Below, piece after piece: positions 3,280-23,200 of a DNA stretch of 64,000 nucleotides (positions within the stretch are counted from its first letter, which is position 1; each line of letters opens with the position of its first letter). The position numbers were made by a program, and so were the translations under genes. Under the pieces are notes generated by a model that searched no databases, was not told the origin of the DNA, and saw nothing but the letters and a program-made list of their open reading frames with translations. Source of the stretch: Oxalobacteraceae bacterium OTU3CAMAD1 (GTDB lineage: Bacteria > Pseudomonadota > Gammaproteobacteria > Burkholderiales > Burkholderiaceae_D); the NCBI GenBank assembly GCA_024123915.1, contig CP099650.1:992001-1056000 (forward strand), in the 5' to 3' direction.

Positions 3280-3736
3280 TTTCCTTTGAAGATCAAGCGT
3301 CGCTGAATTTTTAGACAGTCGAAGGCAGTTGTCGATCGTGCAAATGGTTGACGATTTTGGTTGACGCTCGGGAGATTAGGTTGACGCTTCATGCTGACGA
3401 TTCGATCGTTACCTCATCAAACTTACACATCCTCAAATGCTTTGAATATCAACGTTGTCTGGCTCCAAGTGTATCTCTTCCGCTAGGGGAGATCGTTGAA
3501 TGCAGGTTGTCGCTAGGTTGTCGCTAGGTTGACGCCGGATGTCTTCTTGTCGACGCTAGATTAGCTCATGCAGCAACTGTCCTGCATTGGACAAGGCCTT
3601 GCAGATGTGAACTCAGGTAAGTTTGAGCTATGGCCTACTTCACATAGGCAGCTGCCTTTTTACGCCTTGGATATCCCTCAAAGTTCGTCTCATTGCAGCG
3701 CATCCTGCGCCATGCCATACCTTTGAGGATCTCATC
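3280..3736. other. 457-bp non-coding control region upstream of alpA-mobV
   Basis: No convincing gene. The region holds the cluster of GGTTGWCGC direct repeats described separately. It lies between the minus-strand small ORFs and the plus-strand alpA, so it should contain promoters for both. It is the natural place for an oriT, an oriV-like site or excision-control sites. I see no long dyad typical of a defined oriT. Confidence 0.45.
3346..3536 (+). repeat. Iteron-like direct repeats, consensus GGTTGWCGCT
   Basis: Six copies of GGTTG(A/T)CG, all in the same orientation, start at 3346, 3359, 3379, 3505, 3516 and 3527. The last three are spaced exactly 11 bp apart, one helical turn, which favours cooperative protein binding. 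Such arrays are typical of replication iterons or of binding sites for excisionase/AlpA-type proteins, and alpA follows 200 bp downstream. Which protein binds is unknown. Confidence 0.6.
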
Positions 3737-3946
3737 ATGTCAAAACGAGTTATACGAATTAACGAACTGGCTACGACCCCGCGCAAGCAAGGCTTGCTGC
3801 CGGTCAGCCCTGCGACTGTTTGGCGCTGGGTCCGTACAGGGAAATTTCCGCAGCCTTTCAAATTGGGGGCATCTGTGACGGTATGGGACATGGACCAAGT
3901 TGACGCTTTCATCGTGGCGCAATCTCGAATCGCTGATCAGTCATGA
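3737..3946 (+). CDS. AlpA-family (MerR-like HTH) regulator
   Basis: A 69-residue DNA-binding protein. The ATG at 3737 is preferred over an upstream start at 3623 because GAGGA sits about eight bases before it and the family begins here (MSKRVIRINELA). The helix-turn-helix signature is clear: VSPATVWRWVRTGKFPQPFKLG followed by VWDMDQVDAFI, as in prophage AlpA/excisionase-like regulators. Such proteins regulate excision or transcription of integrated elements. The stop codon overlaps the mobV start (ATGA), so both are translated together. The direct repeats upstream are candidate binding sites. Confidence 0.85.
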   Translation: MSKRVIRINELATTPRKQGLLPVSPATVWRWVRTGKFPQPFKLGASVTVWDMDQVDAFIVAQSRIADQS

Positions 3947-4941
3947 CTATGATGAGCAACTCTAGACAACCGGCCCCCCCACTGAAACAGCATGGGCCTG
4001 CTCCTACCGCATTCGTGCGAATTAAATCGTTGAATACCAAAACTGTCCGAGGTGCAACTTCACATGAAAATGTCATAAAGATTGCTGCTCTCCATAACCT
4101 TCGTCAGATTGCCGCCGAGTGCGGTGTCGCTAGTAGTGGGCGTATCGATCCCACGCGCATCTCGTTGAATTATCGCCTGCGAGGTGAGGATACCGCAGCG
4201 GCAGTAGTTAAATATGCAAGTCAGCTGATCGACGAGGCCGGCGTGAAGATCCGACGAAAGGATGCAATCATGGCTCTAGAGGTAGTTGTTAGTCTCCCGC
4301 AAGAAGGAACTATTGATCAACGTACATTTTTCCATGACACGGTCGCTTGGATCGAAGATCATTTCAAAGCTCCTATACTCAGTGCTGTAGTTCATCTCGA
4401 TGAAGCTGCACCACATTGCCATGTACTAATTTTGCCTCTCATCTTGGGGCGGATGAATGGTGGAGCTTTGGCTGGTGGGCCATCAAAAATCAAGCTTATG
4501 CACTCGGATTTTCATACAAAAGTTGGCGCACGATACGGCTTTCCCGCGCACCAGAAACCACCTAGACCATCAAGCTCTCAAATAGAGAAGGTGGGCAAGA
4601 AAATCTTGGAGGCGGTCAAGTTATGTCCTGAACTTCTTGATGCTCCAGCTATAGCACGAATTCTTATTGCAGCGTTTGGGCAGCATCAAGACACCTTGCT
4701 CCCGTTGTTGGCGCTAACGTCTTCGCCTTCAACAAAAAAACGGCGGAGCTTCGTGCAAATTATGACTGCGCCATGTAAGCCGCTACCTCAGCGGGGACCA
4801 GTGAAGTCTATAGATATCGGTTCGCGAAAATTAGGCCTCAAATCACGTCCGTCAGAAGAACCTCTATCCTGTGTAGACGTTCGCAAACTGGGACTAGCTG
4901 ATGGTGGGCGCTCGGGTACGGAGCATGTAGCGCGGGACTAG
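3943..4941 (+). CDS. MobV/Pre-family relaxase (plasmid recombination/mobilization protein)
   Basis: A 332-residue protein of the Mob_Pre (MobV) relaxase family, which nicks oriT and starts conjugal mobilization of plasmids and integrative elements. The key metal-binding motif is intact: VVHLDEAAPHCHVLILPL at about residues 148-165, the HxDE..PHxH pattern of MobV. N-terminal (SLNTKTVRGATSHEN) and downstream (KIKLMHSDFHTKVGARYGF) family segments are also present. The C-terminal region is short and lacks an obvious long coiled coil, so this is a compact or truncated form. It overlaps alpA by four bases. ATGs at 3949 and 3952 are alternative starts. No type IV secretion genes are present, so transfer would depend on a helper. 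Confidence 0.85.
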   Translation: MTMMSNSRQPAPPLKQHGPAPTAFVRIKSLNTKTVRGATSHENVIKIAALHNLRQIAAECGVASSGRIDPTRISLNYRLRGEDTAAAVVKYASQLIDEAGVKIRRKDAIMALEVVVSLPQEGTIDQRTFFHDTVAWIEDHFKAPILSAVVHLDEAAPHCHVLILPLILGRMNGGALAGGPSKIKLMHSDFHTKVGARYGFPAHQKPPRPSSSQIEKVGKKILEAVKLCPELLDAPAIARILIAAFGQHQDTLLPLLALTSSPSTKKRRSFVQIMTAPCKPLPQRGPVKSIDIGSRKLGLKSRPSEEPLSCVDVRKLGLADGGRSGTEHVARD

Positions 4942-5078: not shown

Positions 5079-7154
5079 ATGAACTACGATCGTGCGCGTG
5101 CTATTCAACTTTTAAGGGCCGGTTCCAGGAGCTCAAATGCAGAGTTTCGCGACGGACAGGAAGAGGCAGTCCAACACCTAGTGGAGGGGCGCGGCAGGCT
5201 GCTAGTGATTCAAAAAACTGGTTGGGGTAAGAGCTTCGTGTACTTCATTAGCGCTAAGTTATTACGCGAACAGGGAGGTGGTCCCACATTGCTGATTTCC
5301 CCACTTCTTTCGTTGATGCGTAATCAGGTTGCAGCAGCGAAGGCGATGGGCGTGAACGCTGCGACAATCCACTCTGACAACATCGATGACTGGGATGACG
5401 TCATTGCACAACTACGAGCAGATCAGGTGGACGTGCTGATCATTTCTCCTGAACGCCTAGCTAACGCAAAATTTGCTGCTGAAGTATTGTCTGTAGTGGG
5501 CGCCAGGATTTCAATGATGGTTGTTGATGAGGCTCACTGTATTTCGGATTGGGGACATGATTTTCGTCCGCAATATCGACTGCTCGAACGCATTGTAAAG
5601 ATGCTGCCCCCGAACCTACGCTTACTCGCAACTACTGCTACGGCAAATAACAGAGTGATGGGTGACCTTCAAAGCATTCTTGGCCCTGATCTCTTGATAT
5701 CCAAAGGCGATCTCGGGCGCCCTTCGTTGACGCTCCAGACCATCAAACTACCGACGCAGGCTGAGCGCATGGCTTGGGTAGGTACCCAGTTGGAGCGCAT
5801 GAAGGGAAGCGGCATAATTTATACATTGACCGTGCGCGATGCAGTTCAATTGACCTCCTGGCTTAAGCACTTGGGCTTCAACGTGGCCTGCTACACGGGG
5901 GCTACCGAGGACCGTCCTGCGCTGGAAGATGCACTTCTCCACAATAGGGTAAAAGCGCTTGTTGCAACCACCGCATTGGGCATGGGCTACGATAAGCCTG
6001 ACTTATCTTTCGTATTTCATTTTCAAATGCCTTCGTCAGTCGTTGCCTACTATCAGCAGGTCGGACGTGCCGGCCGTGCGCTTGATAGTGCCTATGGTGT
6101 TTTGCTCAGTGGAGTCGAGGAGATTGAAATAGCGGAATGGTTCATAGACAGCGCGTTCCCCACACAAGAAGAAGTGTCGGAGGTACTTCACGCTCTTGGG
6201 GCATCTGAACATGGCCTTTCGGTACCAGAAATATTGCATGTTGTAAATGTTAGCCAAGGCCGAGTTAACAAAACATTAGATTTGTTGAACCTCGAATCGC
6301 CCGCTCCAATTACTAAAAATGGAACCAAGTGGACGTTGACTACGGCCGAGCTTAGCGAGTCCTTTTGGGAGCGCACTGACAGGCTAACGTCGCTTCGACG
6401 GCAAGAGCTGAAAGAGATGCAGCGATATGTTGAACTTCCGTTTGGCGCACATATGGATTTCTTGATTGCCGCACTCGACGGCGCACCTGCCGCGCATAAG
6501 GGAGTCGCGATGCCCGCGCTTCCAACGGCTGTCGATCCTGCATTGGTCCAAACCGCAGTGGCATTCCTAAAGCGAACGAATCTACCAATCCAACCACGTA
6601 AGCAATGGCCAGCTGGAGGACTGCCTCAATCTGGAGTCCATGGGAAAATTCGTCCTGAGTATCAAGCCGGAATTGGGCGAAGTCTTGCTATTTGGGGCGA
6701 TGCAGGATGGGGACGCCTTATCAAATCGGATCGCTATTTTGCCAAGAATTTTAGTGATGAGCTCGTGGATGCTTGTGTAACAATGGTAAGAGAGTGGGGA
6801 CCAAATCCGGCACCTACTTGGGTTGCGGCTATCCCGTCGCTGCGAAATCCAAATCTCGTTCCAAATTTTGCTCAACGTGTGGCGCAAAAGTTAGGGCTAC
6901 CTTATCAGCACGCGCTTATAAAAACCGTCCATACCAAGGAGCAAAAATTCATGGCGAATAGTGCTCAGCAGGCTTTGAACCTCGATGGAGCAATGGAGGT
7001 TGTTCTGGCGAATGTGCTTCCCGGACCTGTTCTTCTGATCGATGATATCGTCAACTCGCGTTGGACCTTTACTGTCGCTGCTACGCTTCTCCTGCGAAGT
7101 GGTAGCGGCCCAGTTTGGCCCATGGCACTCGCACAATCAGGCGCTGAAGAATGA
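5079..7154 (+). CDS. RecQ-like DNA helicase with C-terminal phosphoribosyltransferase-like domain
   Basis: A 691-residue protein. Residues 1 to about 340 form a RecQ-type superfamily 2 helicase: motif 0 (FRDGQEEAV), Walker A QKTGWGKS (Lys51), DEAH box at 150-153 followed by the RecQ-type HCISDWGHDFR, TTATA, and motifs V/VI with GMGYDKPDL and QVGRAGRA. A linker region follows. Residues from about 560 to the end look like a ComF-type phosphoribosyltransferase, with the PRPP-loop signature VLLIDDIVNSRWT (Asp655-Asp656) and a closing PMALAQSG. The start is supported by AAGGAAATCG before ATG. It overlaps the DprA-like gene by four bases (ATGA), indicating one functional unit. The phosphoribosyltransferase plus DprA pairing recalls ShosT/ShosA, a toxin-antitoxin type phage defence. 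The fused helicase is an added feature. The assignment to that system is an inference. Confidence 0.75.
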   Translation: MNYDRARAIQLLRAGSRSSNAEFRDGQEEAVQHLVEGRGRLLVIQKTGWGKSFVYFISAKLLREQGGGPTLLISPLLSLMRNQVAAAKAMGVNAATIHSDNIDDWDDVIAQLRADQVDVLIISPERLANAKFAAEVLSVVGARISMMVVDEAHCISDWGHDFRPQYRLLERIVKMLPPNLRLLATTATANNRVMGDLQSILGPDLLISKGDLGRPSLTLQTIKLPTQAERMAWVGTQLERMKGSGIIYTLTVRDAVQLTSWLKHLGFNVACYTGATEDRPALEDALLHNRVKALVATTALGMGYDKPDLSFVFHFQMPSSVVAYYQQVGRAGRALDSAYGVLLSGVEEIEIAEWFIDSAFPTQEEVSEVLHALGASEHGLSVPEILHVVNVSQGRVNKTLDLLNLESPAPITKNGTKWTLTTAELSESFWERTDRLTSLRRQELKEMQRYVELPFGAHMDFLIAALDGAPAAHKGVAMPALPTAVDPALVQTAVAFLKRTNLPIQPRKQWPAGGLPQSGVHGKIRPEYQAGIGRSLAIWGDAGWGRLIKSDRYFAKNFSDELVDACVTMVREWGPNPAPTWVAAIPSLRNPNLVPNFAQRVAQKLGLPYQHALIKTVHTKEQKFMANSAQQALNLDGAMEVVLANVLPGPVLLIDDIVNSRWTFTVAATLLLRSGSGPVWPMALAQSGAEE

Positions 7155-8488
7155 TTCCTAGTCTTTCACTCAATACTCAGGCGATCCTTTTGTTGACAGC
7201 CCCGCTGATGGTAGGGAGTTCCAGCCCTGTTGGGGCCGTTCTATCGCCGAAGGAATACAAATCGCTTGCTCAAAAGTTGCTCCAGCTAGGGCGACAGCCG
7301 GCTAGTCTTTTGGAGCCCGGTGGTGACACGCTAGCGCGCGAATGTTCGACGGTCGTAGAGCCTAGCAGGCTGCACGAATTGTTGTCTCGCGGATTCTTGC
7401 TGAGCCAGGCGGTTGAGCAATGGAGAGCGCGGTCTATATGGGTTATTAGCCGAGCCGATCCTGATTACCCTAGGCGCCTGAAGGCGCGAATGCGCACGGA
7501 TGCCCCACCGGTCTTGTACGGATGTGGAAACTTGGATCTTTTGGAGACTGGAGGGTTAGCCATCGTCGGGCCTCGTAAAACTCAAAGTTCGCTAATTGAG
7601 TATGCGAGAAATGTGGGACAACTTGCTGCTCAAGCCGGGATGCCTGTCGTCTCTGGTGGAGCTAAAGGCATTGATGACGCTGCGATGCATGGTGTTATCG
7701 GGGCAGGCGGCTATGGTTGCGAGGTTCTTGCGGAGGACTTGTTTGGTGCCGTTATAGATCGCGACCGAAGGAGCGCAATAATGTCTCAGCAATTGCTCCT
7801 TATTTCGGCCTATGACCCCAATTCTCGATTTAGTGTAGGGCATGCACTACAAAGGAATAAATTGATTTATGCGATGGCAGATGCTGCTCTCGTGGTCGAC
7901 TCTGAAATTGGCAAAGGCGGGACTTGGGCGGGAGCCATTGAGCAAATTGAGAGGCTTCATTACGTTCCGGTATTCGTTCGTTCAACAGACGAGCCTTCGC
8001 TTGGTTTGCGGGAATTGATGGGCCAAGGAGCCTATGAATGGCCAGAGCCCAAAGATCATCATAGTTTGTCCAAGCTGTTTGAGACCTTAAGTGATTACGC
8101 CTCTAAAGGGAGCAAACGAGTACCTCGCTCCGATTCGCTATTCGCTGACCCAGAGATCGCTGAGCAACACCAAGCGCTTGATGAAGGTTCAGTCGCCTCA
8201 GGGGCCGGTGTCACCATTAGTCCAAAGACTGAGGCTATCTCCAACGGCGATGGCAGCAGTACTAGACCCGAAAATTTGGCGGTCGCCCCGGCGGATGTAC
8301 TCTTCCAAACAATTTGCAGTCTATTGCAAGAAGCGAAAGAAGAAGTCCTTCTTGAAGAAGAGGTCGCGAAAATGTTAGACGTCATGCCTGAACAGGCATT
8401 GCGATGGCTCAAACGCCTCGAAGTCGATGGTGTCCTAACCTATGATGAGGGCGGACATTTTCGAGTAGTTTCGGCTCTTAAACATTGA
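7151..8488 (+). CDS. DprA/Smf-like Rossmann-fold protein (possible ShosA-type partner)
   Basis: A 445-residue DprA-family protein. Residues about 70-130 resemble the N-terminal DprA extension (VISRADPDYPRRLKARM, APPVLYGCGNLDLL). The Rossmann core starts at LAIVGPRKT (about 137-143), continues with VVSGGAKGIDDAAMHG, and ends in FSVGHALQRNKLIYAMADAALVVDSEIGKGGTWAGA. The last 60 residues form a winged-helix-like domain (LLEEEVAKMLDVMPEQALRWLKRLEVDGVL). Chromosomal DprA loads RecA on single-stranded DNA during transformation. This copy is translationally coupled to a helicase-phosphoribosyltransferase in an island, so a defence role, perhaps restraining its partner as ShosA does, is more likely. 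That role is inferred from context. An unconserved linker of about 80 residues precedes the winged helix. Confidence 0.8.
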   Translation: MIPSLSLNTQAILLLTAPLMVGSSSPVGAVLSPKEYKSLAQKLLQLGRQPASLLEPGGDTLARECSTVVEPSRLHELLSRGFLLSQAVEQWRARSIWVISRADPDYPRRLKARMRTDAPPVLYGCGNLDLLETGGLAIVGPRKTQSSLIEYARNVGQLAAQAGMPVVSGGAKGIDDAAMHGVIGAGGYGCEVLAEDLFGAVIDRDRRSAIMSQQLLLISAYDPNSRFSVGHALQRNKLIYAMADAALVVDSEIGKGGTWAGAIEQIERLHYVPVFVRSTDEPSLGLRELMGQGAYEWPEPKDHHSLSKLFETLSDYASKGSKRVPRSDSLFADPEIAEQHQALDEGSVASGAGVTISPKTEAISNGDGSSTRPENLAVAPADVLFQTICSLLQEAKEEVLLEEEVAKMLDVMPEQALRWLKRLEVDGVLTYDEGGHFRVVSALKH

Positions 8489-8561: not shown

Positions 8562-10340
8562 TTAACGATCGATAAAATCTGCCTTTATCCCCAAGTACAT
8601 GGGATGATCGGCCCCTTTATAGGTTGGCAACCATCGCTTGTCTTGTTGACCAGTCGGGTGGTCGTACTCAGTTGACGAAAGAATCAGCTGAGCATTCTTA
8701 GCTGCGCAAAGATTTTCAAGCGCACTAAGATATTTGGCAAGGTCGGCGGTGTGTAGTTCTTGCTGTTTAGGCGTATCTAAAATCAGGAACCTAAATGGAC
8801 GGGAAGGTTCCGAAATGTAAGCCTCGAACAAGGCGGCATGGATAGCCAGCACCAACCGGATTTGCGTACTGCCCGAGAAAAGATCCAGCGGCTCGCCGTC
8901 AAACGTAAAACGAAGATTCAAGTCAATGTCGACGTTTCTAGATACATTCTGAGCATCCAGAATGTCCATCCATTTAACTGCAAGGTCTCGAAGCAAATAT
9001 CGCAGTTTGTTGAATTCAAAATCGGTGCGTCCGCTGTTCGACAGATTGTCGATGCGATCTTGAATGCGAAGGCGTTCGGCTTCGAGCTTGAAAAGCTTGG
9101 AGCGCTCAGACTGAAGCGACGCAATGTGAGTAAGTTCAGCCTGAGCTTCGACCAACTGCTTTGTCAGCGTTTGCACTGCTGTAACTAGTTGATCAACGCC
9201 AGCCGTCGTAGGAGATCTCAGTTGGTCCGTCAGCACCTGCCGTTCACCACGCAGATTTTCCAATACCTCCGTAATGTATTCGATTCGTATCTCTGTCCTT
9301 GATGCGTTGCGATCAAGATCTTTAATTTGATCTCGAAGATAGAGAAGATTTTTACCATATGACTCAGTACTACCGATAAAGAGGCCGCAGTTGCTAACGC
9401 CACATATCTCGCCAAACGAAGAGAATACTCGACGAGCTTCTTCATTCAGACCAAGAGTCTTTACTTCACCGTCAATTTCAGTGCGAATGGCATCAATGCC
9501 TGAGACGCGACTACGTAGTTCGGAGAGCTCAATCTGCTTTGACTGAATTTGCTGGTCTTTTTGACGCAGCAATTCGGTCAAAGTGGCGTTTGCAGTTCCT
9601 TTTGCATCGACTGAGTCGCGAAGTGCATCGACCTTGCCAGTTAGGTCGGTAACACGAAGCTGAAGTATCTCTTGATTTACGGCACTATCATCGATGTCTC
9701 TTGATTGGTATTCGAGTACGCGCTGGGCAGCAACGATCTTTCGAGTCTGCGCATCAAGCGCAGCCTTCTCATTGATGATATCTTTTTTAACGTCGAATGA
9801 GTGTTTGGGGTTGAGCCCGAACACGAAACGAACCATCTCTACGAATTGGTCGGAGATGAAGGGACTGGTCGATTTGTAGGCCGCAGTATAGCCATCGCCC
9901 TGATTAACGTAGAAAACGGGTAGGACCGTGGATACGAAAGGATGGGCAACTTGACCGTTATTCGCTACCAAGCGGGGGGGCTCCAGGCCAAGCGCTTTAA
10001 ACAGCGCTATTGAGAACGATCCTTCGCTGAAGTGTTCAGATTCCTCGCCCCGATGGCTGAGTACGGCATGGAAATCGCGATTATTGGCCCCTAAAATGCG
10101 GTGCACAAAAAACGGTTCTCCATCGTTCTCCGCTACTAGCGTTATCGCTGCACATTTGCCGTATATCTCATCTCGAAACTTCGGCGGGTATCCAAGACTG
10201 CCAGCAAGTGATTGAATAATTGGTGTTTTTCCGCTCCCGTTTCTCGCGAAAAGTAACGTGGTGCGCGCCCCAAACTCAAGAAGCGGACTTTCCCAACCGT
10301 TCTCTCCCAGTGGCTCAATTTTGAGAGAAACAAGTCTCAA
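8562..10340 (-). CDS. ABC-3C system ATPase (SMC/Rad50-like)
   Basis: A 592-residue ABC-type ATPase with a split head and a central coiled coil. Walker A is FARNGSGKT (Lys38). Residues about 185-420 are heptad-rich, with long Glu/Gln/Arg stretches. The signature motif is degenerate (LFSGSTQIRL). Walker B and following residues read FLILDTPKQQEL (Asp522), a sequence I associate with ATPases of ABC-three-component systems. The start is TTG at 10340, supported by GGAG about six bases upstream, and overlaps the middle-component stop (TTGA). It is the last gene of a three-gene operon. In such systems the ATPase is thought to sense invading DNA or other molecules and control the nuclease effector. 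Confidence 0.8.
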   Translation of the reverse strand: MRLVSLKIEPLGENGWESPLLEFGARTTLLFARNGSGKTPIIQSLAGSLGYPPKFRDEIYGKCAAITLVAENDGEPFFVHRILGANNRDFHAVLSHRGEESEHFSEGSFSIALFKALGLEPPRLVANNGQVAHPFVSTVLPVFYVNQGDGYTAAYKSTSPFISDQFVEMVRFVFGLNPKHSFDVKKDIINEKAALDAQTRKIVAAQRVLEYQSRDIDDSAVNQEILQLRVTDLTGKVDALRDSVDAKGTANATLTELLRQKDQQIQSKQIELSELRSRVSGIDAIRTEIDGEVKTLGLNEEARRVFSSFGEICGVSNCGLFIGSTESYGKNLLYLRDQIKDLDRNASRTEIRIEYITEVLENLRGERQVLTDQLRSPTTAGVDQLVTAVQTLTKQLVEAQAELTHIASLQSERSKLFKLEAERLRIQDRIDNLSNSGRTDFEFNKLRYLLRDLAVKWMDILDAQNVSRNVDIDLNLRFTFDGEPLDLFSGSTQIRLVLAIHAALFEAYISEPSRPFRFLILDTPKQQELHTADLAKYLSALENLCAAKNAQLILSSTEYDHPTGQQDKRWLPTYKGADHPMYLGIKADFIDR

Positions 10341-10816
10341 TTTACTTCTCCTCGAATGCGAGCTTCATCTCTAATATATTGATAGCTAAGCTCAATAGTC
10401 TTCATCGACATCGCTAACGGGCTTTCCCCAGCTGTAGCGCTTTGGAAGACCTTCTTGCCAAGTTCGGTTGCAGATATCCGCCGCGTTTGATCATCGACAG
10501 TAATTTGTTTCGTCGCTTCTAAAAATGTCAGCGCTTTGATTGTTCGTATGCGTAAGTTGCCAGACCATCCTATATCCTGAGATGAGCCTTTGAAGCCTGC
10601 TACCGTCCGTTCCAGGCACTCGCCAACTAACTGCCCGATTTCCGGAAGTAGGGGTTTCGAGGCCCCTTTGCTTAGCGCAAGAATCGTCATGGCCAGCAAG
10701 GGAAGCTGAAACAGTGCTTCGTTACCCAACGAGTGGGCAGGAATTGATAGCTCAGCAGGAATTTGCAGCCGGATATTAAGCTTTCTTGCTTCATTAAAGA
10801 ATTCGGTAGCATTCAT
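10337..10816 (-). CDS. ABC-3C system middle component
   Basis: A 159-residue helical protein lying between the nuclease effector and the ATPase. The ATG at 10816 is chosen over an upstream in-frame start at 10846 because GGAGGT lies seven bases before it and because this start overlaps the effector stop as ATGA. The C-terminal part looks like a winged helix (IRTIKALTFLEATKQITVDDQTRRISATELGKKVF). It overlaps the ATPase by four bases. No catalytic motif is seen. It is assigned as the small adaptor of an ABC-three-component system mainly from its position, its size and the winged-helix-like end. Confidence 0.7.
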   Translation of the reverse strand: MNATEFFNEARKLNIRLQIPAELSIPAHSLGNEALFQLPLLAMTILALSKGASKPLLPEIGQLVGECLERTVAGFKGSSQDIGWSGNLRIRTIKALTFLEATKQITVDDQTRRISATELGKKVFQSATAGESPLAMSMKTIELSYQYIRDEARIRGEVN

Positions 10817-11991
10817 CGTGAGGACCTCCGAACAATTGACGCGCAAAACGCTCCTAGCAACAGATCAACGTTCAATAGCGGAAACTTTTGAGCCAGCGCT
10901 GACTGAAGCACTACATCAATCTGCGTTCCTAAATCGGCAAGAGCACCTCCGCTCAGAATCCACGCTTTACATTTGGCATCGATGTCGCTGAGTAGTCGTT
11001 CAAGATCGAACTCAGGGAATGTGTGGCGAGCGGTACGAAGCCACACATCCCAAGTCACCTTTGCACGAGATGCCACTTCAATCATATTGTCCGGCGCACC
11101 GGCGGCCTTTAATTGGCGTTGCAATATTGATGCAACTTTGATTGCTTGAGGAGTATCCCCACTCAGCAAATTCCGGTAAACCGTGGTTGAGATGCTCAGC
11201 ACCTTTAAAAGATCATCGAGACCAACGCCGGTAACCAAGTCAATTTTTTCCTTGGTTAGACGTTTGATCGGAGCACAAGATTTCGACTCAACAAGTGCAA
11301 TAAGGCTGTTTGCTATCTCATCTACCTCATGCTTCTGGAGGTCAATTTCGCTGTGATTCCATATGGCTGTGCGCGCCGCATCTGCGAAGGGTTCAAGAGT
11401 GTCCCCTAAGTGGGACACCTGCCACAGAGTTAGCTTGGATCTTGCTGCTTTAAACTGATCTTCGGATAGCGGCTTTCCTGGTGAGAAGATGTCACCGAAC
11501 TTTTCAATGAACTGGTTGATGTAAGAAAGAGTGGATTTGCCATCTTTGAGATGCTGTTGGACCTCAATAACATCATCCTGAAAATGAACATTGCTGAGTA
11601 CGGTGACTTCTCGACACTGCTCTCCAAACTCAATGGTATGAATGAATAGCTTGCCGGCGATGCTGTCTCGTATTGCAGTCAGCTTTTCTTCGGTGTCGAG
11701 TTTCCCTTTTTTTTTCAAAGAGAAGACTTCATCGACTTTCCACTGCTGGTTGGCTCGACCTTTTGTTTTGACTTGGAAGAAGTGGTACTCGATAGCGCCG
11801 TTGATGTTTCGACGGACAACGAAGTCATCATGGTAGTCACAATAGACTCGATCAACATCCTTGCCACTAAGTATTTCTAGTGCGGCAAAGGCAGCGGCTT
11901 GAAACTGCATCCGAAAACGATTGGTTGTCTCTCGACCAACAGTTTCCCGAGGCGCTTTTTCATGGATAACGTCCACGGGCTTTTCTTTCAT
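10813..11991 (-). CDS. ABC-3C effector: DUF4297/CAP4-type nuclease with C-terminal ABC-3C domain
   Basis: The effector of the operon. From the ATG at 11991 it is 392 residues. The frame stays open to ATGs at 12123 and 12153, but those would place the LexA-box promoter inside or directly against the gene, and the family similarity begins near this ATG (ETVGRETTNRFRMQFQAAAFAALEIL). No start has a strong ribosome site, so the true start is uncertain. The N-terminal domain has a PD-(D/E)XK-like layout: an Asp pair at about residues 55-56 (DYHDDFVV), then FFQVKTKG (Gln73, Lys75), as in DUF4297/CAP4 double-strand DNA endonucleases. The rest is helical and should contact the other components. Its stop overlaps the middle-component start by four bases. 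Confidence 0.72.
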   Translation of the reverse strand: MKEKPVDVIHEKAPRETVGRETTNRFRMQFQAAAFAALEILSGKDVDRVYCDYHDDFVVRRNINGAIEYHFFQVKTKGRANQQWKVDEVFSLKKKGKLDTEEKLTAIRDSIAGKLFIHTIEFGEQCREVTVLSNVHFQDDVIEVQQHLKDGKSTLSYINQFIEKFGDIFSPGKPLSEDQFKAARSKLTLWQVSHLGDTLEPFADAARTAIWNHSEIDLQKHEVDEIANSLIALVESKSCAPIKRLTKEKIDLVTGVGLDDLLKVLSISTTVYRNLLSGDTPQAIKVASILQRQLKAAGAPDNMIEVASRAKVTWDVWLRTARHTFPEFDLERLLSDIDAKCKAWILSGGALADLGTQIDVVLQSALAQKFPLLNVDLLLGAFCASIVRRSSR

Positions 11992-12123
11992 TACCAAGAT
12001 TGCGATTGGAACTATGCGAATGGTCGTTTTATCATTCTTTTTTTGCCACAAAGGCGATGCGGCCAATAGTTCCCATTTACCCCATATGGGTTGCTTTTTG
12101 GAAATGACAGTGTGAGTTCTCAT

Positions 12124-12143
12124 GACTGTATAAATATACAGTC
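12124..12143. promoter_or_regulatory. LexA (SOS) box over the ABC-3C promoter
   Basis: GACTGTATAAATATACAGTC has 8-bp inverted arms around a 4-base centre. It fits the LexA pattern CTG-N10-CAG almost perfectly (CTGT, AT-rich core, ACAG). On the minus strand a TTGATG -35 (12164-12159) and TGTATA -10 (12140-12135), spaced by 18 bases, place the box directly over the -10. The sequence predicts repression by LexA and induction of the ABC-3C operon by DNA damage. Confidence 0.75.
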
Positions 12144-12274
12144 TTTTCGACATCGGCGCATCAATCGAAACAACGACTAAGCATGCGTCAAAGAACCCTA
12201 GTCATTCCAAACCTCAATCAGCGGTAGCTATTCTGCACTATTTCCTTCTGAACTTTTATCTTAACGGATGGTTG

Positions 12275-12830: not shown

Positions 12831-13223
12831 ATGAAGAAACAGTACGAATTTGATGAGTTAGATGAGGTCGAACAACTTCACGCCAGCGAGATCGGCGGGG
12901 CGTCTCCTGAGACAGCTGACGACTTTGCTGAGCAGGTTGTAGATGACCATTACGCGGCAAGATATGGCGCCCCTCAAAGCAGCGTTAACGAATGGCTGCG
13001 TTCTGAGCCAGATGCCGTATCAGAGGTCAAGCTGTTGCTTGTCCAGCGACAAAAGGAAATAGAAGCTTTGGCCCAAAGCACTTTTGCAAGCGCGGGCGAG
13101 GCACATAGATGGTTCAACACTCGCCTGCCGGTCGCGCTCAAAAACCAAACGCCTCTTAGTGCCATGATCACTATTGAGGGCTGTGCTAGAGTCGAAAAGC
13201 TACTTCTAGAGCTTTACAGCTGA
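12831..13223 (+). CDS. MbcA/ParS-like (DUF2384-type) antitoxin-related protein
   Basis: A 130-residue acidic protein. The C-terminal 50 residues match the toxin-binding domain of MbcA/ParS/Xre antitoxins: FASAGEAHRWFNTRLP, then TPLSAMITIEGCARVEKLLLEL. The N-terminal half is acidic and unrecognised. These antitoxins usually pair with a RES-domain toxin, but the next gene has no RES features, so the role may be different or the toxin may be unrelated. It is the first gene of a plus-strand operon: the next starts seven bases after its stop. Confidence 0.6.
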   Translation: MKKQYEFDELDEVEQLHASEIGGASPETADDFAEQVVDDHYAARYGAPQSSVNEWLRSEPDAVSEVKLLLVQRQKEIEALAQSTFASAGEAHRWFNTRLPVALKNQTPLSAMITIEGCARVEKLLLELYS

Positions 13224-14204: not shown

Positions 14205-17200
14205 GTGAGCAAAGTCATTGTGTTTGTCGATAGCCGCGCCGTCGGCGCTTCCTTTGTCAATGGCCAGACCGGCCCGGATATAGAAGTTATTGTGCTCGAT
14301 GCGACACGCGACGGCTTGGTGCAAATGGCCGAGGCGCTCACGGGGCGCACCGGCCTGGACTCGATCCAGCTGGTCTCCCACGGCGCCTCGGGGACTTTGT
14401 TGTTGGGTAACTCCCTGTTAAGCGACGCCAGCATCGGCAACTATCAGTCGGAATTGCAAAAAATCGGCGCCAGCCTTGCCGATGACGGCGACCTGCTGCT
14501 GTACGGCTGTGAGGTGGCGCAAGGTAGCGGCGGCCAGCACTTTATCGAGGCGCTGGCGCTGGCGACGGGAGCCGATGTGGCCGCGTCGACGGATCTGACC
14601 GGCCCGGCCGCGCTCGGCGGAAACTGGACCCTCGAAGCGGTTGCTGGAACGGTCGAGTCGGCGGCCCTGCAGATGACCGTCGACGGCACGCTCGGCCTGT
14701 TCACCGGCTCTGCGGGGGACGACACGATATACGGCACGGGCGCCAGCGATACCATCGTGGGCGGCGATGGCAATGACCACCTCAACGGTACGGACTATGT
14801 CGGTTTTACCACCGGCGGCGACTGGATCGACGGCGGCAATGGCAACGATGTGCTGTGGGGAAGCTCCGCAAACGACCTGCTCGTCGGCGGCGCCGGCAAC
14901 GATACGTTGAGTGGCCAATGGGGGCAGGACACGCTGCAGGGCGGCGACGGCAATGACGTGATCGAACCATATTCCTCCAACGGGAATTTGCTCGTCGACG
15001 GCGGCGCCGGCAACGACACGATCTATGCTAGCGGCAGCGACACCGTCAGCGGGGGCGAGGGCAACGATCTTATTTACAGTACCTCTTCGTTCGGGGATAA
15101 CTCGCGTCCGTTGCTGGTCGATGGCGGCGCCGGCGATGACACGATTCATCTGCTACCCGGCTATTCGCGCCATCAACAAGAACTGGCAACCGGCGGCGCC
15201 GGCAGCGATACGTTCGTTGTGACGATGGATATCGACGGCGCCAAGAATATCGTCACGGATTTCAGCGCCGGCCCCGGAGGCGACCGTATCGATGTCTCCG
15301 GGCTGCTGGCGAATAGCGACTACCTCGGCATGAGCACGGCGATCAATCCGTTCAACGCGGCATACGGTTACCTGCGCCTGGTCCAGGATGGCGCCGACAC
15401 CTTGCTGCAGTACGACCAGGATGGCGTCGGCGCCGGCGCCCACGCTTACGCGACCGCGCTGGTGCTGCGCAATGTCGATGCGAAAAGTCTCACCAAGGAA
15501 AATTTCACCGACCTGATCGCGCCGGACGGCAGCAAGGCCGACGGCCAGGCGATCACCGCACCCAACGGATTGGGTGTACTGCAAGGCGGTTATTACAACG
15601 ACACCATCACCGGCGGTGCCGGCGCGGACACGCTGGCGGGCGGGCACGGCAACGACCTGCTGCGCGGCGGCGGCGAAGCGGCCGGCGCTGCCGGCGACAG
15701 CATGGCCGGCGGCGACGGCAACGATACGATGATCGGCGGCACCGGCAACGACACGTTGTGGGGGAATCGGGGCAGCGATCATATGGAAGGTGGCGCCGGC
15801 GACGACTACCTTATCAGTGGCGGCGTCGACGGCGACGGCGATTTGGGCGTCGACACGCTCATCGGCGGCGATGGCAACGATACCCTGTCGTTCCGGGGAC
15901 TCTACTATAACGGCGCGCCCGTGCGCATCGACGGCGGCGCCGGCGACGACGTGATCGAGATCGCAAGCTATGGCGTCACCGGCTCTGCCGGCGCCATCGT
16001 CACCGGCGGCGCCGGCAGCGACACGTTTGGTGGGCAGGGGAGTTTCGCGCCCTTCACCAGTTCGTACTACGTGGTCACGGACTTCAAAGTGGGCGTTGGC
16101 GGCGACCGCATCGGCGGACAAGCGCTGCTCAGCTATGAGGCCGACCACTTCAAGGGCAATCCGTGGGCGCCAGCCAGCGGGTTCGTGCGCCTGGTGCAAT
16201 CGGGCGCTGACACGCTGGTGCAATTTGACCAAGATGGCGCCGCTGGCGCCAAGAAGTTCATTACCGCGATCCTGCTCCAAAACGTCAACGCCAGTCAGCT
16301 GGTGCAAGCCAATTGGGCGGCCTACCTGCGGGACGGCTGGACCGGCAACGATACGATGTACGGCGGCTTCGGCGCCGACAGCCTGCGCGGCGGGGAGGGC
16401 AACGATCTGCTCGACGGCGGCGCGGGCGACAACCAGCTGCTCGGCGGCGCCGGGAACGATACGCTGCTGGGCGGCGCCGGCGCGGACCAGCTCGGCGCCG
16501 GGCCGGGCGTCGATATCGCTGACGGCGGCGCCGGCGTCGACACGCTGACGGTGCTGGGCAACTTCGCCGATTATGCGCGCACACGCGTCAACGCCACCGA
16601 TACCTTGCTGGTCAACGCGACGACCGGCGAGAGCATCACGGTGCGCAATATCGAACAGGTCGTGTTCGCCGATGGCAGCCGGACGATGGCGCAGGCCCTG
16701 ATCAATCTGCCGAGCGGTTTCGACGACGTGCTGGCCGGTGACGCAGGCGCCAACGTCCTCGATGGCGGCAAGGGCAGCGACACCATGGCCGGCGGCGGCG
16801 GCGACGATCTTTACACGGTGGACGCACTGGGCGACGTCGTAGTCGAATCGGCGGACGGGGGAACCGACCAGGTGAACGTCGCGCTGACGGCGGCCGGCAC
16901 CTATGTGCTGGCGGCCAACGTGGAAAACGCCACCGTGACGGCGGCGGTCTCGATCGCCGTGAATCTGACCGGCAACGCATTGGGCAACGTCCTGATCGGC
17001 AACGCGGCGGCCAACACGCTGCTCGGCGGCGCAGGCAACGACAAGCTCGACGGCGGCGCGGGCAGCGACAAGCTGAGCGGCGGCAGCGGCGACGACATCT
17101 ATGTAGTGGATGCGGCGGGCGACGTGGTGACCGAACTGGCCAATGAAGGCGACGACACGGTGGAAACCACCCTGGCCGGCTACGTGCTGGGCGCCAACGT

Positions 17201-20200
17201 GGAAAACCTGCGTTACAAGGGCGTGACCGCCTTCAATGGCAAAGGCAACGAGTTAGCCAACCGCATCACCGCCGGCAACGGCGGCGCCACGCTCGACGGC
17301 GCGGCCGGCAACGACACCTTGACGGGTGGCGCCGGCAACGACAGCCTGCAAGGCGGCCTGGGCGACGACATGCTGACCGCTGGCGGCGGCAAGGACACCA
17401 TCGACGGCGGCGACGGTGGCGACACGGCCGTCGTCTTGGGCAACGTGGGGGACTATGCCGTGACCCGTCCGAACGCGACCGATACGGTCCTGACCGGCCC
17501 CGGCGGCAATGTCGTCACCCTGCGCAACGTCGAGACGATCCGCTTTGCCGACGGCGACAAGACCATCGACCAGCTCCAGGTGAACATCGCCAGCGTCGGC
17601 AACGACAAGCTGAACGGCACCGTTGGCAACGACGTGCTCAACGGCGGCCTGGGCATCGACACCCTGACCGGTGGCGCCGGCGACGACACCTACGTCATCA
17701 CCAACGTCGCGACGGCGGTCATCGAAGATGTCGGCGGCGGCGTCGACCTGGCGCAGGTGGCACTGACGGCAGCGGGCACTTATGTGCTGGCGGCCAACCT
17801 GGAAAACGCGATCGTCACATCGGCCGCGACGGTGGCGGCCAACCTCACCGGCAATGCATTGGATAACCTCCTGACCGGCAACGCGGCGGCCAACACGCTG
17901 ACCGGCGGCGCCGGCGACGATACGCTGGCCGGTGGCGCCGGCAGCGACAAACTGGCCGGTGGCAGCGGCGACGACACCTATGTAGTCACCGAGGCGGGCG
18001 ACGTGGTCACCGAATTGGCGAACGAAGGCAACGACACGGTCGACACCACTTTGGCCAGCTATGTGCTGGGCGCCAACGTGGAGAACATCAGCTACAAAGG
18101 CTTGACCGCCTTCAACGGCAAAGGCAACGAACTGGGCAACGTCATCACCGCCGGCAACGCCGGCGCCACGCTCGACGGCGCGGCCGGCAACGACACGCTC
18201 ACCGGGGGCACCGGCAACGACAGCCTGCAGGGCGGCGTGGGCGACGACATCCTGAGCGCCGGCGGCGGCAAGGACACCATCGACGGCGGCGTCGGTGGCG
18301 ACACAGCCGTCGTCTTGGGCAACGTGGCCGACTATGCCGTCACCCGTCCGAACGCGACCGACACGGTCCTGACCGGACTGGGCGGCAATGTGGTCACCCT
18401 GCGCAACATCGAAACGATCCGCTTCGCCGACGGCGACAAGACGATCGACCAGATCCAGTTCAACATCGCCAGCGTCGGCAACGACAAGCTGACCGGCACC
18501 GCCGGCAACGACGTGCTCAACGGCGGCCTCGGGGTCGACACCCTGACCGGCGGCGCCGGCGACGACATGTACTTCATCGCCAACACGGCCTCGGCGGTCA
18601 TTGAAAACGCGGGCGAAGGCTACGATTGGGTACAAGTCATGTTGACGGCCGCCGGTACCTATGTCCTGGCGGACAATGTTGAAAACGCCACCGCGACGGC
18701 GTCGGCGGCGACCATCGCCGTCAACCTGACCGGGAACGAATTGGACAACATGCTCGTCGGTAACGCGGCAGCCAACACGCTGATTGGCGGCGCAGGCAAC
18801 GACACGCTGCACGGTGGTGCCGCCGGCAACGACAAACTGCTCGGCGGCAGCGGCGACGACTTTTACTACGTTGGCGAGGCGGGCGATGTCGTCACCGAAT
18901 TGGCCAACGAGGGCAACGACACGGTGCAAACAACGCTGACCAGCTATGTGCTGAGCGCCAATGTCGAACACCTGACTTACACGGGCACGGCCGCGTTCCG
19001 GGCCACCGGCAATCTTCTGGACAACGATATCATTGCCGGCCACGGCGGCGCCACGCTCGACGGCGGCGCCGGTAACGACACCTTGACCAGCGGCTCCGGC
19101 AACGACAGTCTGCAGGGCGGCTTGGGCGACGATTTTCTGTTCTCGGGCGACGGCAGAGACACCATCGACGGCGGCGCCGGCACCGACTTGGTCCTTGTTC
19201 CGGGCAACCTGTCCGACTACACCATCACGCGTCCGAACTTGACCGATACCGTCCTGACCAGAGCGGGCGGCAACGTACTCACTTTGCGCAACGTCGAAAA
19301 GGCCCTTTTCAACGACGGTGAGCGGACGATCGAACAGCTTCACTTCAACGTCGCCAGCGTCGGCAACGACAAGCTGTCGGGCACCGCCGGCAACGATGTG
19401 CTCAACGGTGGTCTGGGCATCGATACCCTGACCGGCGGCGCCGGCGACGACACCTATGTTGTCACCAACGTCGCGACGTCGGTTGTCGAAGATGCCGATG
19501 GTGGCATCGACCTGGCGCAGGTGGCGCTGACTGCGGCCGGCACTTACGTGTTGGCGGCCAACGTGGAAAACGCGGCCGTCACGTCGGCTGCGACCGTCGG
19601 GGTCAACCTGACCGGCAATGAATTGAACAACGTACTGACCGGCAACGCCGCGGCCAATACGTTGACCGGCGGCGCCGGCAACGACACGCTCGATGGCGGC
19701 GCGGGCGTCGACAAACTGGCCGGCGGCAGCGGCGACGATACCTATGTCGTCGACGTGGCCGCCGATGCGGTCACCGAGTTGGCGGGCGAAGGCACCGACA
19801 CCGTGCGGACGGCGCTGGCGACCTACACGCTGGCGGCCAACGTCGAGAACCTGGCGTACGCCGGCAAGGCCGGCTTCACGGGCACCGGCAACGCGCTCGA
19901 CAACGTCATCACCGGCGGCAACGCCGGCAACAAGCTCGACGGCGGCGCGGGCAACGATCAGCTCATCGGCGGCGCTGGCGCGGATAGTCTGATCGGTGGA
20001 CTGGGTGACGATACCTTCGTCGGCACCGCCGGCAAGGACACCGTGGACGGCGGCGCCGGCGTTGATCTGTTGCGGATCAGCGGAAAATTCGCCGACTACG
20101 CCATTACCCGCCCGACTGCGGCCGACGTCGTGCTCACCGACAAAGCCGGCAACGTCCTCACCGTGCGCAACGTGGAAGCGTTTGAATTTGCCGACGGCCC

Positions 20201-23200
20201 GCAATTGCTCGACAACGTGTTGTACAACGTGCCCAGCATCGGCAAGGACATGTTGTACGGTACCGCCGGCGACGACACGCTGGACGGCGGCGCCGGCGCC
20301 GACACCATGAATGGCGGCGACGGCAACGATACCTACCTCATCGATAACGTCGGCGATGTCATCGAGGAGGGCCAGTACTTCGGCACCGATGTGGCGCTGG
20401 TGGCGCTGGCCACCGCCGGCACCTACACGCTGAGCGACAACATCGAGATCGCCAAGGTGACCTCGGCCGCCACGGTGGCGGTCAACCTGAACGGCAACTG
20501 GCAGGACAATGTTTTGACCGGCAATGCGGCGGCCAACATCCTGACCGGTGGCGACGGCAACGATACGCTCGATGGCGGGGCCGGCAATGACAAGCTGCTC
20601 GGCGGCGCCGGCGACGACGTCTACGTCGTCACCGAGGCTGGCGACCAGGTCACCGAATTGCTGGCTGAGGGCCACGACGGCGTGCGTACGACGCTCGCCA
20701 GCTATGCCCTCGGCGTCAACGTCGAGGACCTCGACTACACCGGCGCCATCGCTTTCGCCGGCGTCGGGAACGCGCTGAACAACGCCATCCACGGCGGTAA
20801 CGGCGGCGCCAGGCTTGACGGCGGAGCCGGCAACGACAGCCTCTATGGCGGCAGCGGAAACGACAGCCTCCAGGGCGGGACCGGCGACGACATCGTAACC
20901 GCCGGCACCGGCAAGGACACTATCGATGGCGGCGCCGATGCCGATGTGCTGACCGGTCTCGGCGCGCGGGCCGACTATGTGCTGACCCGCCCGAACGCGG
21001 ACGACATCGTGCTCACCGACAAGGCGGGCAACGTCCTCACCGTGCGCAACGTGGAATTGTTCGAGTTCTCCGACGGTCCGCAGTTGCTTGAAACGCTGGT
21101 GTTCAACGTGCGCAGCATCGGCAGGGACAAGCTGGCAGGCACTGCCGGCGACGACACGCTGGACGGCGGCGCCGGCGCCGACACCATGAATGGCGACGAC
21201 GGCAACGACACCTACCTCATCGATAACGTCGGCGATGTCATCGAAGAAGGACAGTACTTCGGCACCGATGTGGCGCTGGTGGCGCTGGCCACGGCCGGCA
21301 CCTACACGCTGAGCGACAACGTCGAGATCGCCAAAGTGACTGCGGCGGCGACCATGGCCGTCAACCTGACCGGCAACGCTCTGGACAACCTCCTGACCGG
21401 TAACGCGGCGGTCAATTCGCTGATCGGCGGCGACGGCAACGATACGCTGGACGGGGGCGCGGGCGCCGACAAACTGATCGGCGGCACTGGCGACGACCTC
21501 TACATCGTCGACAACGCGGGCGACGTGGTGACCGAGGTGCTCAACGGGGGCGGCGACACGGTGCGGACCTCGCTGTCCAGCTATGTGCTGGCGGCCAACG
21601 TCGAAACGCTGGCGTACACCGGCGTGACCGCTTTCACCGCCACCGGCAACGCGCTGGACAACGTTATCACCGGCGCCAACGTCGGCAACAGGATCGATGG
21701 CGGCGCGGGAAATGACAGCATCACAGGCGGCAAGGGGGTGGACAACCTGGCGGGGGGCCTCGGCGACGACACCATCGCCACCGGCGGCGGCAGGGACACT
21801 GTCGATGGCGGAGAGGGCATCGATGTGGTGCAAGTGGTGGGCAATTTCGCCAACTACACGGTGGCCCGCCCGAACGCGACCGACACGGTGTTTGACGACA
21901 AGCATGGCAATGTTGTTACCCTGCGTAACACCGAGTATGTCGCGTTTGCCGACGGCACCAGGACGATGGCGGAGATCCACGGCAATGTCGCGAGCGCCGG
22001 CAACGACTACCTGCGAGGCACGGCCGATTCCGATGTGATCGACGGCGGCGACGGTATCGACACGATGGAAGGCGGGCTGGGCAATGACGCTTACGTGCTG
22101 TCCAGTCCCGACGACGTGGTGCTCGAAGCGGCCAAAGCCGGGCTGGACTCGGTCGGCCTGGCCTTTACCAAGGCCGCCACCTATACCATGACGGCCAATG
22201 TCGAAAACGCCGCCGTCGTGGCGGCCGACAGCGTCGCGGTGAACATCACCGGCAACGAACTGGACAACTGGCTCGCCGGCAATGGCGCCGCCAATATCCT
22301 GATCGGTGGCGACGGCAACGATACCTTGCAGGGCCTGGGGGGCGCCGATACGCTGATCGGCGGCGCCGGCAACGATCTCTATATCATTGATGGCGCCGCC
22401 AGCAGGGCCGTCATCGTGGAAAGCGCTGGCGACGGCATCGACCAGATCAACACCAATCTGGCTGTCTACAAGCTGCCCGACAATGTCGAAAACCTGTGGG
22501 GACGCACCCAGACTGGCCCGCTCAACTTCACCGGTACCGGCAATGCGCTTGATAATGTGATCAATGGAAGTTACGCCACCAGCGTCAAGCTGGACGGTGG
22601 CGCCGGCAATGACACGCTGATCGGCAGTGGTGGCAATGACAGCTTGCTTGGCGGCGACGGCGACGACCGCTTCAATGCAAGTCTTGGCAAGGATACTGTC
22701 GATGGCGGCAATGGCGTCGATACCATGGTGTTCGCCTACCCGTTCGGTGACAGCTCATCGTTCAAGGTGAAACAACTGAGCGCCAGCGATATCCAGCTGA
22801 CCGATACCCAGGGTAACTCCGCCACGGTGCGCGGCGTCGAACATTTTATGTTCAGCAATATTACGCTCACGCTGGACAACCTCACGCAGAACCTGCACGG
22901 CGTCGGCACTTCCGCCGACGTGATCGCCTACACCCAAAACATCGTCGGCACGAGCGGGATCGACAATTTGGTCGGGACCGCCGGCAATGACTGGATCAAC
23001 GGCGCCGGCGGCAACGACACGCTGACCGGCGGCGGTGGCGCCGATGCCTTTGTCATCCCGGCGCAGAGCATGACGACCATTACCGATATGGTCTCCGGCA
23101 GCGACCGCATCATGTTCCACCAACGCGACATCAAGAACGCCATGTTCCTCCAGGCGCAGGAGGTCTCCGAGCCTGGCTCCGACCTCTACGGCAATGTCGT

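Follow-up and report, generated by a model that had tools for sequence, protein, structure and literature searches.

We have analysed a 64,000 nt stretch of the genome of Oxalobacteraceae bacterium OTU3CAMAD1 (contig CP099650.1, positions 992,001 to 1,056,000; hereafter the window), in which two overlapping genes, psyrT and psyrA, encode a RecQ-like helicase with a C-terminal phosphoribosyltransferase (PRTase) domain and a DprA-like protein. Judged from profile matches, the pair is a member of the known and separately named PsyrTA / RqlHI toxin-antitoxin family, and quite probably it works as such a pair, most likely for phage defence, with the PsyrT toxin held by PsyrA. By itself the locus is an ordinary member of the named system; the useful outcome is comparative, namely two basic residues of the PRTase domain that follow the presence of PsyrA among the relatives.

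Results

Identity of the gene pair

The PADLOC profile for PsyrT matched the first gene with an E-value of 1.7e-260 over residues 1-689 of 691, that is nearly full length, and the PsyrA profile matched the gene directly downstream at 2.5e-120, with ShosA next at 1.2e-23. The PRTase segment alone scored 1.8e-62 with the PsyrT profile versus 0.0026 with that of ShosT. A sequence-only reading of this DNA had proposed a ShosTA-type variant. Its relatedness to ShosTA stands, as both proteins do match the ShosT and ShosA profiles, but far below those of PsyrT and PsyrA, so that membership belongs to PsyrTA / RqlHI. The same reading rightly recognised a probable toxin with its antitoxin, the fusion of helicase and PRTase, the ATGA overlap and a DprA-like second gene with a winged-helix-like end (Table 1). 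It could not say whether the fused form was known; the fusion has been described for RqlH (PMC4670107).

The anatomy, family, fold, pairing and intact motifs of the window locus are established. K51 is present in 75 of 75 tabulated PsyrT rows, paired with PsyrA or not, while D655 and D656 of the phosphoribosyl pyrophosphate (PRPP) loop are each kept in 43 of the 44 paired rows. The pattern DD[IM]V[DN]S[RC]WT occurs in all of the 120 best homologues out of at least 7999 matches, the window having DDIVNSRWT and the commonest form being DDMVDSRWT (102/120); the at least 7999 candidates, collected at E 0.001, may include plain RecQ. The residue equated with D663 of RqlH is also kept. The C-terminal domain has a PRTase fold with its PRPP loop, and the nearest solved structures include ShosT, ComFC being structurally nearer; the fold similarity on which the earlier reading had staked itself beforehand is thus present. 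The CxxCxxC motif, retained in most other rows, is missing from the 12-row clade that contains the window protein; from its position and spacing we take it to be the RecQ zinc motif. Shuffled sequence gave more promoter-like and terminator-like sites than the actual sequence. In PsyrA the C-terminal winged helix is absent from 6 of 21 displayed rows (42 aligned), which agrees with the report that RqlI functions without its helix-turn-helix end (PMC4670107).

Pairing and distribution

Loci were sampled as the best 80 of at least 588, fetched with a 17-sequence alignment, and the sample leans to nearer relatives. A locus was called paired if an open reading frame matching the PsyrA profile followed on the same strand within 2.5 kb, and unpaired if none did; copies of psyrA elsewhere were sought in a subset of the genomes. 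By this definition 44 loci have PsyrA, 31 do not and five end too soon, and the conserved pairing expected by the sequence-only reading is therefore found in part. In a tree of 78 rows the pairing label needs 8 changes, and shuffled labels need 25.8 on average. L059 and L091 (contig end) and L094 (broken frame) were excluded from the trees, L094 still being counted among the 44 paired rows, and L058, L059, L078, L091, L105 and L135 were not countable for pairing.

The PsyrT tree does not track host taxonomy. The window clade (12 rows, SH-aLRT 100) draws on Nitrospirota, Chloroflexota, Acidobacteriota, Spirochaetota and others, mostly metagenome bins; as many of the named contigs are such bins, host names may be wrong. 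Counting the window's own genome, nearly the whole PsyrT profile was matched in 12 genomes out of 398 in the phylum (one of these matches has an internal stop) and in 6 out of 392 in the family. PsyrA directly adjoins PsyrT in nine of the 12, the others being G014, G006 and G231. A tblastn search of phage records gave no PsyrT match at E 1e-50.

Other arrangements were also seen among the relatives. In an E. coli ST131 genome and on a conjugative plasmid (L039:5092-8609 and L043) a type I restriction-modification operon harbours a RecQ-DprA pair between its S and R genes. Two PsyrT homologues of 995 residues (P0020 and P0021) carry extra domains including PF13280 (WYL).

Residues 552 and 623 of PsyrT

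The authors of the RqlH study asked why RqlH is tolerated where RqlI is missing, and detected no major sequence difference that would tell the two situations apart (PMC4670107). Of the 96 countable rows 60 are paired and 36 unpaired. Lysine or arginine stands at residue 623 in 59 of the paired and five of the unpaired proteins, and at residue 552 in 59 and eight; 58 paired proteins and no unpaired one have a basic residue at both. Three realignments of the C-terminal part left the strict counts unchanged, except that one gave seven instead of eight unpaired rows at 552; with a lenient reading of 552 in that one, 2 of 36 unpaired rows have both residues basic. The unpaired exceptions at 623 are L013 and L015, of one genus, which keep K623, and L068, L107 and L119, which have R623, while seven or eight unpaired rows, depending on the alignment, have a basic 552. 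The paired exceptions are L085 (no basic 552) and L093 (no basic 623).

For the final count the rows with internal stops (L017, L058, L070 and L092) were excluded and the tree was built from the helicase part only. A basic residue is then found in 57 of 58 paired versus 7 of 35 unpaired rows at 552, in 57 of 58 versus 5 of 35 at 623, and at both in 56 of 58 versus 0 of 35. In 177 of 200 random pairings all 7 independent contrasts for the combination ran in the same direction, and in the remaining 23 six of the seven did; in none of the 200 was the direction opposite. The sign test gave a median p of 0.0156 for the combination, which, like the columns, was picked after inspection of the data, and the single positions miss 0.05 (median p 0.0625 for 623 and 0.125 for 552). 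Q622, N634 and W581 also differ by pairing, and were dropped since they offer almost no independent contrasts.

Of the 178 columns conserved in paired proteins 32 fall in the PRTase domain, and the five that best track pairing (552, 623, 593, 548 and 558) all lie there, for which the chance is about 1 in 7000 if linkage between columns is ignored. These alignments suggest that it is in the PRTase domain, and not in the helicase, that PsyrT co-varies with PsyrA. In ComFC a flexible loop (L120-T144) closes over PRPP (PMC9005727); counting from the DD of the PRPP loop, we infer that 623 would sit in the matching stretch.

Genomic setting

The expected defence-island setting was found, Shedu and Lamassu lying on either side of the pair (Table 1). 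The integrase, the AlpA-like regulator and the MobV-like relaxase beside Shedu, PsyrTA and Lamassu suggest a mobile island, which from its gene content is probably integrative and mobilisable. Residues 20-120 of the Shedu protein SduA match HNH/SAVED-type effector profiles.

Table 1. Features of the psyrTA locus and its surroundings. Positions are those of the window unless prefixed with L128.
Feature	Position	Strand	Basis or remark
psyrT (rqlH), RecQ-like helicase with C-terminal PRTase, 691 residues, likely toxin	5079..7154	+	PADLOC PsyrT
DEAD/DEAH helicase domain 1, residues 25-192; K51, DEAH 150-153	5151..5654	+	Pfam PF00270, 1.5e-23
Helicase_C domain, residues 239-334	5793..6080	+	Pfam PF00271, 2.9e-16
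PRTase domain, ComFC/ShosT-like, residues 492-691	6552..7151	+	
R552, basic position tracking PsyrA presence	6732..6734	+	Row comparison
Q622-K623, basic 623 tracking PsyrA presence	6942..6947	+	Row comparison
PRPP loop VLLIDDIVNSRWTFT, residues 651-665	7029..7073	+	D655/D656 conservation, homologue motif
ATGA start/stop overlap of psyrT and psyrA	7151..7154	+	Read directly
psyrA (rqlI), DprA-like, 445 residues, likely antitoxin	7151..8488	+	PADLOC PsyrA; Pfam DprA 2.3e-34
DprA Rossmann domain of PsyrA, residues 92-294	7424..8032	+	
Winged-helix-like end of PsyrA, residues 380-439	8288..8467	+	Model secondary structure
Phage-type integrase	L128:14196-15611		4.4 to 5.8 kb left of window edge
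Long frame, OLD-family ATPase/nuclease-like	L128:18026-19999		By eye; open at L128 end, perhaps into window
DUF6602 protein adjoining Shedu SduA	371-2272		Matches NucC-type effector profiles
AlpA-like regulator and MobV-like relaxase	3623-4941		AlpA E 3.2e-4, just under Pfam cut-off
Lamassu LmuA (with Cap4-type nuclease domain), LmuC, LmuB	8562-12153	-	Convergent with psyrTA
Small gene with Xre/MbcA/ParS antitoxin C-terminal domain	12831-13223		E 3e-7
3080-residue frame with RTX-like repeats, beside island	14205-23447		By eye

Discussion

A published relative is RqlH-RqlI (Russell and Mulvey 2015), in which a RecQ-like helicase with a toxic PRTase is restrained by binding its DprA-like partner, and of which PsyrT and PsyrA of Pseudomonas syringae were named orthologues; PRTase-dependent genotoxicity, neutralisation, physical interaction and a single operon were all demonstrated for RqlHI (PMC4670107). 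Rousset 2022 grouped shosTA, 'syrTA' and rqlHI as systems whose antitoxins are DprA homologues (PMC9122126). A 2025 review attributes to ShosT phosphoribosyl transferase and pyrophosphatase activity, with an altered nucleotide pool as the result, and to ShosA binding to DNA (PMC12593503).

By analogy with these systems we infer toxicity, chemistry, trigger and defence at the window locus. The RecQ-like motor of PsyrT would engage DNA, where it would guide the toxin or hold it back, and the ComFC/ShosT-like domain would cause the damage. The chemistry may be consumption of PRPP with a disturbed nucleotide pool, which has been reported for ShosT, or action on DNA bases, which has been proposed for RqlH. 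The sequence-only reading further suggested that the helicase might sense phage replication or broken DNA. PsyrA is presumably made from the psyrT transcript via the ATGA overlap, and would bind PsyrT and keep it harmless until a disturbance during infection releases it. Phage protection by PsyrTA was reportedly described by Millman in 2022.

Several points weigh against so simple a scheme. Helicase-dead RqlH gave normal culture density, yet low colony-forming units, more SOS induction and more filamentation; RqlI reduced the SOS effect of this mutant and did not rescue viable counts, the PRTase of RqlH alone was non-toxic, and RqlI together with a double mutant lowered titres (PMC4670107). 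Regulation would thus not be a plain toxin-antitoxin switch. In one E. coli expression assay protection by PsyrTA was undetectable and growth was slowed (PMC12409345). In the window itself the PRPP loop carries N659 and R661 in place of the T and G of ComFC, so that ordinary catalysis is not assured, and 31 of the 75 decidable loci are without PsyrA. Support for a defence role from a P. aeruginosa panel is only correlative (PMC10855318).

A tentative explanation for the loci without PsyrA, against which we still lean slightly, is that basic residues at 552 and 623 mark a PsyrT that needs its antitoxin, and that loss of either would detoxify the domain or remove the grip of PsyrA, after which lineages drop PsyrA. 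If true, this rule would answer what was asked in 2015, namely why RqlH is tolerated by many bacteria without its partner, and the pattern makes that question testable by mutation. No more recent account of residues like these came up in the literature listings searched, which were largely without subscription papers.

That the pair is instead a ShosTA variant, in which ShosT gained a helicase, seems very improbable. It is true that the ShosT profile matches 37 of 43 PRTase domains at E<=1 (best 4.7e-8), that PsyrA is recognised by the ShosA profile and that the nearest structures include ShosT; the same sequences nevertheless score far better with their own profiles, ComFC is structurally nearer, hhalign against two single ShosT sequences was weak, and the gene order is reversed relative to both ShosTA loci examined. 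We rejected membership on the profile scores, with which the gene order, resting on two loci, agrees. Rather unlikely, in our opinion, is also a module for DNA repair or handling, built from a competence-like helicase, ComFC and DprA, with toxicity as a by-product of missing regulation and no defence toxin. Each of the three parts is similar to proteins of competence or recombination, and RqlH often occurs without RqlI, its authors proposing a beneficial function on DNA (PMC4670107). Against this reading stand the neighbours, with Shedu and Lamassu on either side and an integrase upstream, the sparse occurrence of near full-length PsyrT in the family and a tree that does not follow host taxonomy.

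Comparison with known systems

PADLOC models named DpdF match the window PsyrT in its helicase and PRTase parts, but the NCBIfam DpdF model gave 147 bits against a cut-off of 550, and no Dpd profile was among the matches listed for the other eight proteins scanned (for two of them, the best 25 of 29). The link of RqlHI-type proteins to ComFA/ComFC and DprA of natural transformation is already published (PMC4670107, PMC5512222); the window differs in that helicase and PRTase are fused and lie in a defence island. With ShosTA it has the PRTase and DprA folds in common, whereas the two ShosT frames examined (416 and 225 residues, one with a HAD-like N-terminus by eye) show no helicase, and both loci open with the DprA-like gene where the window has the toxin gene first, an order not established as defining. 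PsyrTA / RqlHI agrees with the window in domains, gene order, overlap and profile match, the differences being the missing CxxCxxC of the window clade and R552 where most paired relatives have lysine.
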